From: Sphingomicrobium flavum
GTDB taxonomy: Bacteria > Pseudomonadota > Alphaproteobacteria > Sphingomonadales > Sphingomonadaceae
Direction of reading: 5' to 3'
Length of the DNA stretch: 64,000 nucleotides
Assembly (NCBI RefSeq): GCF_024721605.1
Contig: NZ_CP102630.1
Span: 2,259,501 to 2,323,500 of the forward strand
Below the pieces are notes generated by a model. That model saw only the letters and a program-made list of their open reading frames with translations, ran no database searches and had not been told where the DNA came from. Position 1 is the stretch's first letter. Each line of letters begins with the position of its first letter. A program made the position numbers and the translations under genes. This document shows positions 1,410 to 8,265 of this stretch, one piece after another.

Positions 1410-1793
1410 CTAATCGGTTGAAATCAAAGGCGAATGCGAGGCTGCACCCTCTTCGCCGACGACAAATTGCGCTCCCGCCGTCAACCAGACATGCGCGGTG
1501 AGCTCACCCACCTGCTTGCCCCCGCCAAAATGCAGGCGCGTCTTGACCCCGCGCCTGGCCAGCATCGAGCGTGCCGCCAGCGCCTGCTCGTAGCATTGCG
1601 CCCTGATCGGCAGGCGCGAGGAGGCGGAGACGATGACGCGGCGAATTTCGGCGAGCATCTGTGGGCTGGCCTGTCGATCCCCGCGCGTGCGGCTGGCGAA
1701 ATGACGGCGCGCCGGGCGCAGCAGCACATCGGCGCGCGCGATAAGCAGCGCACTGGCCGCTTCGGCATAGAGCCAGAGCGGCGGCCGCCTCAT
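1410..1793 (-). CDS. Lasso peptide leader peptidase, B2-type transglutaminase-like protein
   Basis: This 127-residue protein matches the B2 (transglutaminase-like) half of split lasso B proteins. It removes the precursor leader when guided by the separate RRE protein. The catalytic Cys is at about residue 67 (RAQCYEQALAARSMLARRG) and the His at 101 (TAHVWL). Where the family usually carries an Asp about 12 residues after the His, this protein has Gly-Glu-Glu (VVGEEG), so Glu may substitute. I chose the ATG at 1793, which overlaps the stop of the cyclase gene (ATGA) and indicates translational coupling; an ATG nine bases upstream is possible. Confidence 0.85.
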   Translation of the reverse strand: MRRPPLWLYAEAASALLIARADVLLRPARRHFASRTRGDRQASPQMLAEIRRVIVSASSRLPIRAQCYEQALAARSMLARRGVKTRLHFGGGKQVGELTAHVWLTAGAQFVVGEEGAASHSPLISTD

Positions 1794-3484
1794 TCGCCCC
1801 ACCGCGCAAATTCCAGCGCCGCGACCGTACGGAGCAGGTCGAAGCGGTTGATCGTTTCGTCCTTGCCGGCCGTGTCGGGATCGAACGCCTCGACCGCAGC
1901 GATCAGCTTGCCCCGATTGATCGGGCCCGCATCGAAAGGCTGTTCGGCAATGACGAGCAGCTGATCGCGCTCGGCGGCGATGCGCATGCCCCAGTCGGCC
2001 CCTTGCACCCCGCGCGCCGGTTCGTCGACGAGTGCATCCGGCAGCCGTCCGCGCAGCAATGCCCGGCCCAACGCGCGCGGTTGACCATCATGGGCGCAGT
2101 CCGTTTCCTGAAGTGTCAAACAAAATTCCACCAGTCGGCGGTCGGCAAACAGATCGATTTCCTCGATCCCGAACCGCCGGCGGACTGCCTCGTTCCAGGG
2201 GCCGGGATCGTAGCGCAGGACCAGTTCACGCCGATCCGCGCGGGGATCGAGGGCGATGGGCCAATCGCCATCGGGCCCCTCAACAAAAGGATTTCCTCCG
2301 GCTTGCGAGGGCCGACGCCATCGCCGCCATGCGCGATGCGCGGCGGGAAAGCTCATCAACATCATTCCGCTCCAGCTGGCGCCAGTGCGGGCACGGCGGC
2401 GGCGCATCTCCGTCCACCAGCGAAATAGGCCCGAGCGTCGCGCTTCCGCCAGCGCGCCCGACCCCGGCCAGCTGGTCGTGAAATTGCCCGATCCACCGCT
2501 CAACAACCGCCGTGCACCAAGTGTTCGGGCCTTAGCATAAAGCGGGTCCAGCCAGCTCAGATTGTCGCCATTGGCGACCGGTTCGCCCAAGGCCCTGTTC
2601 CATGCCGAAATCCGATCGATCAGCGGCCCGTCATCGGCGATCACCACATGGTGATCCACCCCCAGTTGCCTTGCCGTCTGCTCAGCGCGCGCGGCGTCGT
2701 CAAAGAAATCATTGCCGGGAAGTTTGGTCGGCGGTCCCGAATGGCGCCCGGTCAAGGCGACCAGCTGCGCCTGGCAATCGCCGTCTGAGGCCGACAGCAA
2801 GACGAGTGAACTGTCGAGGCCGCCGGTCAATTGGACCGCGGCCGGTCCATCGGCGTCTTCAAGCGCTCTTGCCACTGCGTGGCGCACCAAAGTGCGCGCG
2901 TTGGTCACCAGCGTCTCGAAGTCGCGTTCGACTGGGTCACAATCGGGCATCCAATATTGCTGCGACACGGCCGCGCCGGTGGATCGGTCAATGCTGACGA
3001 CATGTCCGGGCATTACGCGCTTGATGTCACTCCAAGCGGTGCTGCGATCGCTGCGATGCCGCATCGCCGCGCGCCGGGCGAGCCAATTCCAGTCGAGGCG
3101 ATCGCCCGCGCGCCGCAGGTCCTGCGGCATTGTGGCGATGGCGATGCCGTCCACTGCGATTCGATAATGAAGTGGCCGCGTACCAAGCGGGTCGCGGGCC
3201 AATACAATCCTGCCTGGAGAGATCAACAACGCCGCAAAGCGGTGGTCGCTCGTCGCCAGATCATCGAGCCTGTCCTCCAGAAGCGCTTGGAAAATCCGCT
3301 CGGCCTCGACCACGCCCCCTGCCTGTGGCGCCATGTCGAGAATGATGCAGTGAGCGCCGCGACGAAGCGTCAGTCGCCATTCGTCATCGACATGAAGAGG
3401 CTGATGGCCAGCATCACTGACCCTCTCGAAGATCGGCCCGAAGCGACCGGCCTCAGCTTTTGCGACGCGGACCGCCTTCGCCAT
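1790..3484 (-). CDS. Lasso peptide cyclase, asparagine synthetase-like C protein
   Basis: A 564-residue protein related to class B asparagine synthetase. In lasso pathways this enzyme adenylates the ring Asp/Glu side chain and forms the macrolactam with the new N-terminus. The N-terminal domain resembles the glutaminase fold (ARDPLGTRPLHY, about residues 96-107) but lacks the nucleophilic Cys2, as usual for lasso C proteins. The PP-loop is TGGLDSS at about 220-226, followed by a Gly-rich LLSGGSGNF segment. The ATG at 3484 lies inside the precursor gene, overlapping its last 32 bases in another frame. No in-frame ATG, GTG or TTG lies between it and the conserved AGRFGPIF region, so this start is preferred over a TTG at 3511. 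Confidence 0.88.
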   Translation of the reverse strand: MAKAVRVAKAEAGRFGPIFERVSDAGHQPLHVDDEWRLTLRRGAHCIILDMAPQAGGVVEAERIFQALLEDRLDDLATSDHRFAALLISPGRIVLARDPLGTRPLHYRIAVDGIAIATMPQDLRRAGDRLDWNWLARRAAMRHRSDRSTAWSDIKRVMPGHVVSIDRSTGAAVSQQYWMPDCDPVERDFETLVTNARTLVRHAVARALEDADGPAAVQLTGGLDSSLVLLSASDGDCQAQLVALTGRHSGPPTKLPGNDFFDDAARAEQTARQLGVDHHVVIADDGPLIDRISAWNRALGEPVANGDNLSWLDPLYAKARTLGARRLLSGGSGNFTTSWPGSGALAEARRSGLFRWWTEMRRRRARTGASWSGMMLMSFPAAHRAWRRWRRPSQAGGNPFVEGPDGDWPIALDPRADRRELVLRYDPGPWNEAVRRRFGIEEIDLFADRRLVEFCLTLQETDCAHDGQPRALGRALLRGRLPDALVDEPARGVQGADWGMRIAAERDQLLVIAEQPFDAGPINRGKLIAAVEAFDPDTAGKDETINRFDLLRTVAALEFARWGE

Positions 3485-3578
3485 TACGCGTCGAGCCGCC
3501 CATGGTCGCAAGCCTGGTGTCGAGCCGGGTCAGCCGCGGCTTTTGCCATTGCAGGCGCTCTGTCTTTTTCTCGCACAT
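3453..3578 (-). CDS. Lasso peptide precursor (A), predicted core GGSTRNGEGGPRRKS
   Basis: A 41-codon ORF between the exporter and cyclase genes, where a precursor is expected. The leader (about 26 residues, beginning MCEKKTERLQ) contains WQKPRLTRLD, a match to the YxxPxLxxLG/D motif read by RRE proteins. It ends LATM, giving Thr at position -2, the usual lasso recognition residue. The predicted core is 15 residues: Gly1, an acceptor Glu at position 8, a Gly-Gly-Pro turn, two Arg, one Lys and a C-terminal Ser. The expected product has an 8-residue ring closed between Gly1 and Glu8 and a 7-residue basic tail. A GAGG ribosome-binding element lies four bases before the ATG. The leader pattern and terminal Ser resemble paeninodin precursors as I remember them. 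Confidence 0.86.
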   Translation of the reverse strand: MCEKKTERLQWQKPRLTRLDTRLATMGGSTRNGEGGPRRKS

Positions 3579-3607: not shown

Positions 3608-5227
3608 CTACCCGCTTGGTGACCCAGTGCCAAGTGTCACCCGATAGTCGCAGCTTTGCGCAAGCGCGTCGTGATGGGTGATGAGGATCGCCGCCATCTC
3701 GGGTAGCGCTGCGCGCAGCCGCGCGATCATTGCGGCGGCGGCAGCCGGGTCCAGCGCCGACAGGCTTTCATCGAGCAGCAGCAGATGCGGCTGGCGGCAC
3801 AGGGCGCGCGCGATCAGCAGCCGCTGGCGCTCGCCGCCCGACAATGCACCGCCCAGTTCGGACAGGCGCATGTCGAGCGGGCGATCGAGCTCCACCAGCG
3901 CCAGCATCGCCCGCATCTCGGCCTCATCGGGGCTGCTGCCGATCGACAGGTTCGCGGCAATGCTGTCATGCAAGATGAGGTCGGCCTGCGGCACATAGGC
4001 CAGCCCCGCCGCCCAGTGCGGCCCCGGCGCTTCGCCGTCCACGCGGATGCTACCGGCGTTCGGCTCCTGCAACCCCGCGATCATGTCGATCAGCCCCGTC
4101 TTGCCCGCACCCGAGGCGCCGCAAATGGCCAGCCACTCGCCGGGTGCCAGCGCGAAGTGAACATGTTCGAACAGCGTATCTCCATCATGCGCCAGCGCCA
4201 GCCCCTCGGCTTCAAGCCGGGCAAATGGCTGCGCGGGGGCCGGCGAAGTTTGGGCCAGCGCCTCAAGCAGCGGCAGCGCGCGCGCAAAGGCCGGGAGCAG
4301 TCCGAACAGTTGATCCGCCATGCGCTGCATCGCCTGCACCGGCGCGATCAGCCGCGCGAACAGCAATAGCAAGGTGCCGAGCGTCGCCAGCTCCAGATCC
4401 AGCCCGCGCGCGCCGAGCAGGATCATCGCGGCAATGGTGATCGCCGACAGGGCGAAGATGATCGCGCGGTTGGTCGCCTGGCGCATCTCGAGCCCCGCCT
4501 GCGCCTTCGTGACGGCGGCCAGTCTGGCGCCGTAGGATCGGGCCAGCGCATCGCCGCTGCCCTGCGCCTTGGCGGCTTTGAGCGCCCCGAACATGCCCTG
4601 CGCCATCGCATCCTGTTCGCTGTGGAGCGCGGTGATGCGTTCGCCTGCGCGCTGCGACCCGATCCAGCGCGGCGCAGCAATGGCCAGGATCAGCAGCCCG
4701 GCACCAAAGCCTACCAGCGTCAGCAGCGGGGACAGCAGCATCGCCGCCGCTGTCGCCACCAGCAGGAGGGCAAGCTGGCTCGCCAGCCCCACCAGCAGGC
4801 TGGCCGCCGCGCCTGCGCGCGGAATGTCGAAGCTGAGCAGCGACTGCATGTCGCCGCGCCCGCGGATCGCCACTTCGGCAAAGGGCAAGGCGGCCAGACC
4901 CCAGGCGGCGCGTTCTCCGATGCTCGCCTCGACCTGCGCTTCGAGCTGCGCCGCGAGCCGGTCACGCGCCAGCCCGAGCGCGATCCGCAGTGCAAAGGCT
5001 GCCAGGAAGATGGCAAGCACGACCTCCAGCGTGGGCCGCAGCCCTGATGCCGACAGCCATTGCGCCCATTGCCCGTCGTCCGCCCCGCCCAGTGCGAGGA
5101 AAAGCAAGGGGAGCAGCGAAAGCAGACCGATCGTCTCGGCCAGCGCGCCCGCCAGCATGAGCGCGAAAAGCAGCCACAGCCGCGCACCGCTCACGTCATG
5201 GAGGAGCCGGGCCAGCCTGCCGATCAC
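3608..5227 (-). CDS. ABC exporter of the lasso peptide locus (D protein)
   Basis: A 539-residue half-transporter with fused membrane and ATPase domains, expected to export the mature lasso peptide and give self-immunity. Residues 1-325 are hydrophobic with about five or six membrane segments. The ATPase has Walker A GASGAGKT (370-377), signature LSGGERQ (462-468), Walker B LLLLDE (482-487) and an H-loop His at 518. The start is the GTG at 5227, which overlaps the stop of the RRE gene as GTGA, so the two are translationally coupled. Longer in-frame readings give arginine-rich nonsense upstream. It ends 29 bases before the precursor ATG. Confidence 0.9.
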   Translation of the reverse strand: MIGRLARLLHDVSGARLWLLFALMLAGALAETIGLLSLLPLLFLALGGADDGQWAQWLSASGLRPTLEVVLAIFLAAFALRIALGLARDRLAAQLEAQVEASIGERAAWGLAALPFAEVAIRGRGDMQSLLSFDIPRAGAAASLLVGLASQLALLLVATAAAMLLSPLLTLVGFGAGLLILAIAAPRWIGSQRAGERITALHSEQDAMAQGMFGALKAAKAQGSGDALARSYGARLAAVTKAQAGLEMRQATNRAIIFALSAITIAAMILLGARGLDLELATLGTLLLLFARLIAPVQAMQRMADQLFGLLPAFARALPLLEALAQTSPAPAQPFARLEAEGLALAHDGDTLFEHVHFALAPGEWLAICGASGAGKTGLIDMIAGLQEPNAGSIRVDGEAPGPHWAAGLAYVPQADLILHDSIAANLSIGSSPDEAEMRAMLALVELDRPLDMRLSELGGALSGGERQRLLIARALCRQPHLLLLDESLSALDPAAAAAMIARLRAALPEMAAILITHHDALAQSCDYRVTLGTGSPSG

Positions 5228-5505
5228 GGGCAGCGCTGCATCATGCCGGCGTCGATCACCTCGACGAGGAATTCGGCAAGGTCGGCGCGGCAGGTTGGCT
5301 CCTCCACCTCGAAGCGCTCGGTCATGGCGGCGACCAGTGCATCGAAGCGCACCGGCTGCTCGGCCGCGCGCCACACGAGTGTGCCGATCTTGTCGAGCCC
5401 GAAACATTCGCCCCGCTCCAGGCTCAGCGCTACCAGCTCGTCATCCACCTCGCCAAAGCTGATGTCGGGATTGCGGCAGATGCGGTCATGATCGGCGAAG
5501 GGCAT
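5224..5505 (-). CDS. PqqD-like RRE protein (lasso B1, leader-peptide binder)
   Basis: A 93-residue PqqD-family protein (from ATG 5505, MPFADHDRICRNPDISFGEV). In split lasso systems this protein binds the precursor leader and presents it to the B2 protease and cyclase. The family pattern is visible: a beta-rich N-terminal half (DDELVALSLERGECFGLDKIGTLVW) followed by a helical half with an FEVEEPTCRADLAEFL segment. It is the first gene of the minus-strand lasso operon, and its stop overlaps the start of the exporter. Only 45 bases separate it from the divergent kinase gene, so both promoters must lie in or overlap this gap. Confidence 0.88.
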   Translation of the reverse strand: MPFADHDRICRNPDISFGEVDDELVALSLERGECFGLDKIGTLVWRAAEQPVRFDALVAAMTERFEVEEPTCRADLAEFLVEVIDAGMMQRCP

Positions 5506-5550: not shown

Positions 5551-6399
5551 ATGCCGCTCTATCGCGCCTTCGGCCTGACCATCGCTTCCGACCTGCCCCT
5601 GACCGAACTGGCGGCGGGCGAGGGCGCGGCCGATGTGCGGATCGATCTGAAGCAAGGCGACGCGCCTGAAGATCTCGACGCGCTGGGCGGCTATGCCTTT
5701 CGCACCCCCGATGCCGCCTTTTCAGTGCGCGGCGGCGATACCATCCAGATCTGGCCCACCCCGGGCGTGCCGCGTGAGGATATCAGCATCTGGCTGCTTG
5801 GCACCGTCATGGCGGCGTTGCTGCACCAGCGCGGGATGCTGACCCTCCATGCCAATTGCTTCGAATATGGCGACGGGCTGGCGGTGGCCGTGGGGGGGGA
5901 AAGCGGTGCAGGCAAATCCTCAATGGCCGCGATGGCCGCCGATGCCGGCTTTCCCGTGCTGGGCGATGATGTGCTGGCGCTCATGCCCGGCAGCGTCGAG
6001 GTGCGCCCCGGCGTCTTGCGCCTGAAGCTGTGGCAACGGGATCTTCACCTCGTTGGCCACACCAGCAAGGGGCTGGAGCGGGCCGCCTCCGATCTCGACA
6101 AATATCATGTCCCGCTACCGCCGGTCGGGACGGGGCCGCGCAAGCTTGAGCGGCTCTATGTGCTTGAAGATGGCGATCTGGGGTTCGAACGGCTGCGCGG
6201 GGCGGCAGCGGGCGAGGCGCTGGTGGCGCAGCTCTACCGATTCGAGGTCGGGCAAGATGTGCGCGGGGACAAGGGCGAACAGTTTCGCCAGGCGCTGATG
6301 CTGGCGCACCAGATCCAGGTCTGGCGCTTCACCCGCCCGCGCGGCGATGACGGGCTCGCCATCGCTTTCGAAGCACTGACCGATCATCTCGGCACATAG
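5551..6399 (+). CDS. HPr kinase-like protein, candidate lasso peptide C-terminal serine kinase
   Basis: A 282-residue protein with an HPrK-type P-loop, GGESGAGKS at about 115-123, a preceding conserved His (LTLHAN, residue 100) and an Asp pair (GDD, 138-140) expected in catalysis. In paeninodin-type lasso clusters such kinases phosphorylate the precursor's C-terminal Ser. Here the predicted core ends in Ser, so the same role is inferred. The start at 5551 (MPLYRAFGLTIASDLPLTEL) follows an AGGTGGGA ribosome binding site; the longer reading upstream overlaps the RRE gene and is less likely. No HPr or PTS gene is nearby, which argues against the classical carbon-control role. A strong hairpin follows. 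Confidence 0.85.
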   Translation: MPLYRAFGLTIASDLPLTELAAGEGAADVRIDLKQGDAPEDLDALGGYAFRTPDAAFSVRGGDTIQIWPTPGVPREDISIWLLGTVMAALLHQRGMLTLHANCFEYGDGLAVAVGGESGAGKSSMAAMAADAGFPVLGDDVLALMPGSVEVRPGVLRLKLWQRDLHLVGHTSKGLERAASDLDKYHVPLPPVGTGPRKLERLYVLEDGDLGFERLRGAAAGEALVAQLYRFEVGQDVRGDKGEQFRQALMLAHQIQVWRFTRPRGDDGLAIAFEALTDHLGT

Positions 6400-6400
6400 A

Positions 6401-6430
6401 AAAATAGCCGCCCCGAAGGACGGCTATTTT
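6401..6430. terminator. Bidirectional rho-independent terminator
   Basis: The arms AAAATAGCCG and CGGCTATTTT form a perfect 10-bp stem around a 10-base loop, with A-runs and T-runs on each side. It sits between the convergent kinase gene and rpmJ, so it can stop transcription from both. Confidence 0.85.
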
Positions 6431-6460
6431 CTGGCCAAACGGCACTGAAAGGCGTGGGGC

Positions 6461-6586
6461 TTAGCCCTGGCGCGCCTTGAAGCGACGGTTGGTCTTGTTG
6501 ATCACATAAGTGCGACCACGACGACGGATGACCCGGCAATCGCGATGACGCGACTTGAGCGACTTCAGAGAATTACGAACTTTCAT
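6461..6586 (-). CDS. rpmJ: 50S ribosomal protein L36
   Basis: A 41-residue, very basic protein starting [20 protein letters not shown] and ending RRFKARQG. This is the longer L36 variant common in alphaproteobacteria, with a single Cys in the position of the zinc-ribbon region. It binds the large ribosomal subunit. It is monocistronic, ends next to the shared hairpin at 6401-6430 and is followed upstream by about 100 bases of non-coding sequence before the M28 peptidase gene end. It is short enough to be missed by length-filtered gene calling. Confidence 0.95.
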
Positions 6587-6684
6587 GGCCGGAACACCTG
6601 CCTAGAGTTAATCCAAAAATTTTCGGGGGTTTGATCCCAAATCCGGGCGCTCACCTAGGGTGGAGGCCCGGCAGAGTCAAGGCT

Positions 6685-8265
6685 TTACGGTGTTGCCCGC
6701 TCCTTTCCCGGGGCGAACAGATCACCGAAGAAATTGCCCTCATACCATTTGGGGCGCTCGGCATCCGATGCCAGCTGGCGCGCGATGCGGTAGTTGAGCT
6801 CGGCATAGCGGGCCAGCGCTGTCCAGTTGATGTCCTGCGACAAATCGTCGCCGGCGCGGTGATAGCGCTGCGCGAAGAAGGCCGTCCACTCATCCTCGCC
6901 GCCATTGCCATAGCCGGTGAACAGGAGGACCGAAGGAATGCCGCGCTGGGCGAACTTATAGTGGTCGCTGCGGGTGAAGATGGCCTGTTCAGGCATCGGG
7001 TCGGGCGACAGGCTGATGCCGATTTCGGCACCCGCGCGCGCCACCGCTTCACCCACCGTATTGTGGCTCGCGCCAAAGGCGGTGACATCGTTGAAGTCAT
7101 AAAGCGGCACCGGCATGTCGAGATTGACGTTGGCGACGATGGCATCGAGCGGCACGGTCGGGTTGATGGCATAATAGTCGGCGCCCTGCAGGCCGAGCTC
7201 TTCGGCGGCCAGCGCCATGAACAGCACCGAGCGGCCCGCTTCATGCTTGTTGTTGGCGAACAGGCGTCCGGCTTCCAGCATGGTGGCGATACCCGAAGCA
7301 TTGTCGAGCGCCCCGTTGAAGATATTGTCGCCTTCCATGCCTTCGCGAATGCCCAGATGGTCGAGATGGGCGCTCAGCACGACATATTCATCGTCCAGCG
7401 CTTCATCGCTGCCGGGCAGCTTGCCGACCACATTGGCGGCGGTGAATTCTTCCCATTCAGACGTGGCGGTGATGCTGATCGTTCCCGGCAGGTCGAAGCT
7501 TTGCAGCGCCTTGCCCTCACGCGCGGCGTCGCGCAGTTCATCAAAATCGCGGCCGCTTCCGGCGAACAGGGCGTCGGCAGCCTTGCCGTTGGCGACCATC
7601 TTGACCTTCATGTCACCGGGCAGGGCGTTGCTGCGGCCTTCCTGATCGACCCAGCCCGTCACCTCGCGCTGACCGAAGAAGCTGGCATAACGATCGTTGC
7701 CGATGGTGATGAGGCCGACCGCGCCATGCTTTGCGGCGCTCGCCTCGCGGCTGGCACCCAGATGCGCGGGGATATCGCTGTTCAGGCCTTTGGGCAGGTC
7801 GGGCATGGCATTGATCGCCACTGCAATCTTGCCCTTCACATCGATGCCCGCATAGCTGTCATGGCCGTAGGGCCCGGCTTCCAACCCGTAGCCGACGAAG
7901 ACCAGGGGCGCGTCCATCTTCATTCGGTCGGCCAGCACATTGCCGCGCACATAGACGCCGTCCATTTCCTCACCGTTCAGTTCGATCGTCTGGCCCGTGG
8001 TCTTGGCGCGGCGGAAAGTGATGTCCTGGAACCAGCCGCCATTATCGCCCGCCGGCTCGAGCCCGAGCGAGCGGTAATGGGCCGCCACATAAAGCGCGGC
8101 GAGGTCATAGCCGCGCTGGCCATTGCCGCGTCCTTCGAGCAAGTCGTCGGCCAGGAATTCGACATGTGCGCGCACTTCATCGGCGCTGGCGGACATTTCG
8201 GCATCATTGGCAAAAGCGGGGGTCGCGGTCAGGGCCAGGGCCGCCGCGGCGAGAATGAGACGCAT
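6685..8265 (-). CDS. Secreted M28-family metallopeptidase
   Basis: A 526-residue enzyme whose ATG at 8265 opens a Sec signal peptide (MRLILAAAALALTATPAFA). It resembles M28 aminopeptidases with an inserted PA domain (middle region near GYGLEAGPYGHDSYAG). The M28 zinc and catalytic residues are visible as SAHLDHLG, GALDNASG, AAEELGLQG, NLDMP and, near the C-terminus, RSDHYKFAQRGIPSVLLF. It probably trims peptides in the periplasm or outside the cell. The long antisense reading over the same bases is a GC-driven shadow. The intergenic region to the divergent carboxypeptidase gene is about 170 bases. Confidence 0.9.
   Translation of the reverse strand: MRLILAAAALALTATPAFANDAEMSASADEVRAHVEFLADDLLEGRGNGQRGYDLAALYVAAHYRSLGLEPAGDNGGWFQDITFRRAKTTGQTIELNGEEMDGVYVRGNVLADRMKMDAPLVFVGYGLEAGPYGHDSYAGIDVKGKIAVAINAMPDLPKGLNSDIPAHLGASREASAAKHGAVGLITIGNDRYASFFGQREVTGWVDQEGRSNALPGDMKVKMVANGKAADALFAGSGRDFDELRDAAREGKALQSFDLPGTISITATSEWEEFTAANVVGKLPGSDEALDDEYVVLSAHLDHLGIREGMEGDNIFNGALDNASGIATMLEAGRLFANNKHEAGRSVLFMALAAEELGLQGADYYAINPTVPLDAIVANVNLDMPVPLYDFNDVTAFGASHNTVGEAVARAGAEIGISLSPDPMPEQAIFTRSDHYKFAQRGIPSVLLFTGYGNGGEDEWTAFFAQRYHRAGDDLSQDINWTALARYAELNYRIARQLASDAERPKWYEGNFFGDLFAPGKERATP

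Follow-up and report, generated by a model that had tools for sequence, protein, structure and literature searches.

A conserved lasso peptide precursor of Sphingomonadaceae with a kinase-type gene set and a probable alanine at leader position −2

Prediction of lasso peptide precursors rests on the threonine at leader position −2, a residue that is usual in these peptides and near-universal, though not absolute. A locus in DNA of Sphingomicrobium flavum (the window, i.e., the whole stretch of 64,000 nucleotides that was analysed) raises the question of whether a 41-codon frame found there is a lasso precursor gene and, if so, where its leader ends and its core begins. It belongs to a conserved group in which that rule seems not to hold. 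The frame, here called gene A, is flanked by the frame of an ABC exporter on one side and that of a lasso cyclase on the other, at a locus that also encodes B1, B2, and a divergent HprK-like kinase:

1410 to 1802, minus strand: leader peptidase B2 (transglutaminase-like); PF13471 at 3e-18 and NF033537 (lasso_biosyn_B2) above its cut-off.
1790 to 3484, minus strand: lasso cyclase C (asparagine synthase fold); PF00733 at 1e-20 and NF033535 at 3e-14, below its cut-off.
3453 to 3578, minus strand: lasso precursor gene A, 41 amino acids, MCEKKTERLQWQKPRLTRLDTRLATMGGSTRNGEGGPRRKS; assigned from its frame and its conservation in relatives.
3608 to 5227, minus strand: ABC exporter D; PF00005 and PF00664.
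5224 to 5505, minus strand: B1, a PqqD-type RiPP recognition element (RRE); PF05402, with Cys in place of the S2-pocket Tyr.
5551 to 6399, plus strand: divergent HprK-like kinase K; weak TIGR04352 match and motif alignment.

The conserved Cys and His of B2 are both present in the alignment, and the protein is the single Transglut_core3 match in the one-contig, 2.34-Mb genome. Assignment of the cyclase rests partly on context, because its NF033535 score lies under the curated cut-off, and its start codon is uncertain (ATG at 3484 or TTG at 3511). The GTG start of the exporter gene overlaps the stop of B1 by 4 bp (GTGA), and the best solved relative of B1 is TbiB1 (5v1u; E 1.5e-10). No isopeptidase was found among the genes identified at the locus. 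What a lasso system requires was found: a (Y/W)xxPx(L) leader, B1 and B2 proteins, and an asparagine synthase-like cyclase adjoining the precursor.

Gene A starts 29 bp beyond the exporter stop (3608), with a plausible Shine-Dalgarno sequence, GAGG, 4 nt 5′ of its ATG. The earlier note on this DNA had described it as overlapping the cyclase gene and as too short for ordinary gene calling. It does overlap the open cyclase frame, but the extent depends on the unsure cyclase start, being 32 bp for the ATG at 3484; the statement on length is not generally true, as 126 bp exceeds the minimum gene length of Prodigal (90 bp). None of the NCBIfam or Pfam models recognizes the precursor, NF033524 included (E up to 1), and the leader/core pattern alone is weak evidence, because about a third (35%) of Markov-simulated windows contain an open reading frame that fits it. 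The motif is thus not rare enough by itself to dismiss a chance frame, yet this possibility is rejected by conservation: gene A is taken as real because it is conserved in genome G095 and in 14 further homologous precursors of the genus. We regard the 41-codon frame as confirmed to be a genuine lasso peptide precursor gene. The proposal of a precursor between exporter and cyclase is therefore borne out by the gene set and the conserved homologues, as is the recognition motif claimed for its leader, W11xxP14xL16.

The closest homologue, that of G095 in the same genus, is 61–65% identical, ends in GGSTRNGEGGPLKKS, with a core nearly identical to that of the window precursor, and lies in a locus of the same K-B1-D-A-C-B2 order. 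Between the two genes the codons from Leu19 to the stop show seven synonymous and three amino-acid changes (R22K, R38L, R39K), and the first 18 residues are mostly changed; judged from the aligned genes, the core region is under purifying selection. The G095 cyclase most likely starts just past the precursor stop, so it is the precursor, rather than an overlapping cyclase frame, that is conserved here. Fifteen homologous precursors besides that of the window occur in the genus, most of them adjoining lasso loci. By profile search, the class has strong scores in 10 of 71 genomes of the genus, the window's own counted, and is nearly absent outside it, with one weaker match in another genus (L089/L114).

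Two tandem, divergent precursors lie between exporter and cyclase in the related loci L057, L059, L065, and L115, where the window has one. In genome G166, two precursors of the class (L058, 8539–9030) are isolated: a search of 14 kb around them found neither B1, B2, C, or D nor a kinase. A full locus (L057) sits elsewhere in that genome, which suggests that they are processed in trans. A sister class of the same genus, which we call AE, follows the pattern W..PE[VI]..L.AG.AE..., with Ala at +13 from the Trp and acceptors at +22/+23. In G547, identical AE-type precursors, MTKTPTPNPAAKTPRMPWTPPRVARIDAGQAEIGTRATGDGAFTTS, are found 4 kb apart (L118, 5182 and 9411), and a third similar match lies at 3526527 on the same contig. 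The alphaproteobacterial loci L127 and L128 carry three to six tandem WxxPxL...(D/E)TA precursors, most with a terminal Ser; tblastn found no B1 or cyclase within 18 kb of them.

We aligned 16 precursors of the class: those of the window, L052, L053, L054, L064, and L070, and two each from L057, L058, L059, L065, and L115. From Trp11 to the acceptor the alignment is gap-free except for two precursors that are one residue shorter. The column of Ala24 (Trp+13) is Ala in all 16. That of Thr25 (Trp+14) is Arg in 11, Thr in only the window and G095, and Gly, Leu, or Gln in the others; that of Met26 (Trp+15) is Met in 15. The Gly27 column (Trp+16) holds Pro in 10, Gly in 3, Ser in 2, and Ala in 1, and the Gly28 column (Trp+17) Gly in 12 and Asn and Thr in 2 each. 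An acceptor Glu at Trp+23 (+22 in the two shorter precursors), followed by Gly, is invariant, corresponding in the window to Glu34 and Gly35; Glu34 is also the sole acidic residue past Asp20 in the window precursor. The Glu proposed earlier as ring acceptor (there numbered Glu8) thus stands. A C-terminal Ser is present in 14 of the 16.

Depending on the register, Glu34 would be position 7, 8, or 9 of the core. The division we prefer is:

3504 to 3578, minus strand: predicted leader, residues 1–25, with the W11xxP14xL16 RRE-binding motif and the invariant Ala24 at predicted −2.
3456 to 3503, minus strand: predicted core, MGGSTRNGEGGPRRKS, with a putative nine-residue Met26–Glu34 ring and the tail GGPRRKS.

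Calculated neutral monoisotopic masses are 1627.80 Da for a start at Met26, 1496.76 Da at Gly27, and 1439.73 Da at Gly28, plus 79.97 Da per phosphate. The tail is basic, as had been claimed. Other classes were compared by the distance from Trp to a recognizable Thr(−2). In the paeninodin-family precursors of L120 (...NKTM/LGGSGEYTD) and L121 (...SETM/AGAGTKYID), and in those of the alphaproteobacterial L122, L124, L125, and L127–L129 (e.g., WSRPELEVLSVDETA/LGAGAVDD), Thr(−2) lies at Trp+13 and the acceptor at +22/+23; the window has its invariant Ala24 in the +13 column and its acceptor at +23. The genes of L120 and L121 were read from plasmid records and were found through a paeninodin-like query string, used as a lead only, which matches the NF033524 model. 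The spacing is class-specific, 13, 14, or 15 residues, with +14/+15 in other sphingomonad classes, so the Trp offset alone does not fix the register, and the occurrence of all three offsets rules out a fixed Trp(−17) rule.

Independent information comes from B1. PMC10368454, with reference to Alfi (2022) and Kretsch (2023), describes an RRE tyrosine (FusE Tyr33, BsfB1 Tyr37) that is believed to touch Thr(−2). We read the corresponding column across 59 B1 proteins. Every one of the 22 loci to which we assigned a Thr-type precursor has Tyr there, whereas the 9 loci of the window class all have Cys or Val (Cys in the window itself) and the 6 AE loci all have Cys. The B1 of a further, unassigned locus (L188) has Cys, and its precursor, looked up afterwards, proved to be AE-type, WTRPRVTRMRAGEAELG. 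In the B1 tree the window class forms one clade (99/96), sister to AE (90/92); because the B1s of the two Ala classes are sisters, the Ala(−2) and the loss of the B1 Tyr probably represent one evolutionary event and not many cases. The column argues that this class would not read Thr(−2) and that the shared Ala at +13 would be its −2 residue. Separately, five loci (L164, L174, L177, L183, and L191) have Phe at the Tyr position, together with precursors in which a residue close to the −2 site appears to be Val, a hint of a general code linking B1 to the −2 residue.

The window precursor is thus probably a non-Thr(−2) system with Ala24 at −2. The earlier note had placed Thr25 there, giving the core GGSTRNGEGGPRRKS with an eight-residue Gly1–Glu8 ring, a reading that we consider unlikely, even though Thr-Met before Gly-Gly resembles a canonical Thr(−2) site, paeninodin-family leaders likewise end in Thr-Met, Thr25 is retained in G095, and Thr at Trp+14 is found in other sphingomonad classes. 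Against it stand the Thr25 column, mostly Arg in the homologues, the Gly27 column, in which the prevailing Pro would be a poor first ring residue and, to our knowledge, an unprecedented ring amine, and the window B1, which lacks the Tyr found in every Thr(−2) locus examined. Both the Thr(−2) and the Gly1 of that proposal are probably wrong; the register was probably off by one, and the relatives favour the core MGGSTRNGEGGPRRKS with a Met1–Glu9 ring. Gly is the usual first residue of a lasso ring and Met an unusual one.

The remaining member of the gene set is kinase K. It has no Pfam match, and a search of solved structures returned weak P-loop matches only, but its His, G-x-x-G-x-G-K-S, and Asp-Asp catalytic motif is intact when aligned with BsfK and with the paeninodin-cluster kinase of L120, and divergent orthologues are present in all eight class relatives with a complete locus. 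(The L120 kinase, at 6377–7312 of that locus on NZ_CP064100.1, is publicly annotated as "aldolase".) The activity of BsfK depends on most of these motif residues (PMC10368454). PadeK, ThcoK, and the Sphingobium enzyme SyanK are known to phosphorylate the C-terminal Ser (PMC9266682), whereas the related BsfK phosphorylates a Ser of the ring and not the C-terminus (PMC10368454). The locus combines an HprK-like kinase motif with a C-terminal Ser, the features of kinase-tailored lasso systems, and Ser41 is the likely target of kinase K. The divergent kinase and the terminal Ser, which form the closest link to paeninodin, had been left out of the earlier description.

The explanation that we find best, and hold to be probable, is a class II (Cys-free), kinase-type, split-B lasso system with Ala(−2), a Met26–Glu34 ring, a phosphorylated Ser41, and export of the product. 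B1 would bind the WxxPxL leader of precursor A, kinase K would phosphorylate its C-terminal Ser41, and B2 would cleave between Thr25 and Met26, the S2 pocket being occupied by Ala24 where other systems place Thr. Cyclase C would then join the amine of Met26 to the side chain of Glu34, closing the nine-residue ring ahead of the tail GGPRRKS, and transporter D would export the product. Threading is not assured, because the tail has no bulky plugs beyond Arg and Lys. A product that is phosphorylated but unthreaded (branched-cyclic), or otherwise not a lasso, seems to us quite unlikely: the tail is indeed short and devoid of a bulky hydrophobic plug, and linear polyphosphorylated RiPPs whose clusters encode an RRE, a kinase, and an exporter have been described (PMC13381572), but here a dedicated B2 and cyclase C are conserved, unlike in those linear peptides, and Arg/Lys or phosphate could hold a small ring. 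Very unlikely, finally, is a register with Met26 at −2 and the core GSTRNGEGGPRRKS, whose Gly1–Glu7 ring of seven residues would resemble those of xanthomonins, for although it follows from the Trp(−17) spacing of BsfA (YxxPxL being said to span −17 to −12; PMC10368454) and agrees with the prevalence of Gly in the Gly28 column and Met in the Met26 column, it would require six-residue rings, below the known minimum of seven, in L059 (MSGTSICEG) and several AE precursors, Gly28 varies (L115/L057), and paeninodin-type Trp leaders carry Thr at +13.

If the preferred Ala(−2) reading holds, the Thr rule can misplace the core start by one residue in clusters of this kind, and the matching change in B1 makes it possible to test cleanly how the cut site is selected by the RRE and the peptidase. 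The locus would also extend the lasso peptides of Sphingomonadaceae by a family whose members are small, basic, and probably phosphorylated. A bolder reading, which we put forward as decidedly improbable, is that a sphingomonad clade has exchanged Thr(−2) for Ala and, to match, the Tyr in the RRE half of the S2 pocket for Cys or Val, and makes tiny, Gly/Ser-rich, Met-first lassos with a (poly)phosphoserine tail lock and no plug; these would be lassos almost without bulky side chains, in which a C-terminal (poly)phosphoserine replaces the plug residue.

Among known systems, paeninodin (PadeA/B1/B2/C/D/K of Paenibacillus dendritiformis) and its family model NF033524 share with the window the WxxPxL leader, split B, ABC exporter, HprK-like kinase, C-terminal Ser, and gap-free Trp-to-acceptor distance (23). 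The window differs in having Ala, not Thr, at the predicted −2 position and Cys, not Tyr, in B1, in a basic rather than acidic tail, in gene order, in its divergent kinase, and in a precursor that does not match NF033524. SyanA/SyanK of Sphingobium yanoikuyae, a kinase-type lasso system for which polyphosphorylation has been shown in the literature, is by description from the same bacterial order, kinase-associated, and provided with a C-terminal Ser; kinase-type lassos in Sphingomonadales are therefore already known. The BsfA/B1/B2/K system of Bradymonas sediminis resembles the window in having a non-Thr −2 residue in a kinase-type cluster and shares all the kinase catalytic residues, but it has Ile(−2), a retained B1 Tyr, a 17-residue spacing, a kinase that acts on ring Ser3, and an eight-residue Gly1–Asp8 ring. 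As its Ile(−2) is experimentally known (PMC10368454), a missing Thr(−2) does not exclude membership of the lasso peptides, and systems without Thr(−2), including predicted Ala(−2), have already been reported (Kretsch et al. 2023, as cited in PMC10368454). Astexins, sphingopyxins, and caulosegnins are alphaproteobacterial too, but in these isopeptidase/TonB-type lassos B is fused, an isopeptidase is used, and an ABC exporter is usually absent (PMC9266682, PMC5067487), whereas in the window B is split and both an exporter and a kinase are encoded. We found no publication on the window precursor class in the open-licence literature. By its genes and aligned residues, the system belongs to the known kinase-associated, split-B lasso type, probably within an unusual Ala(−2) subgroup.
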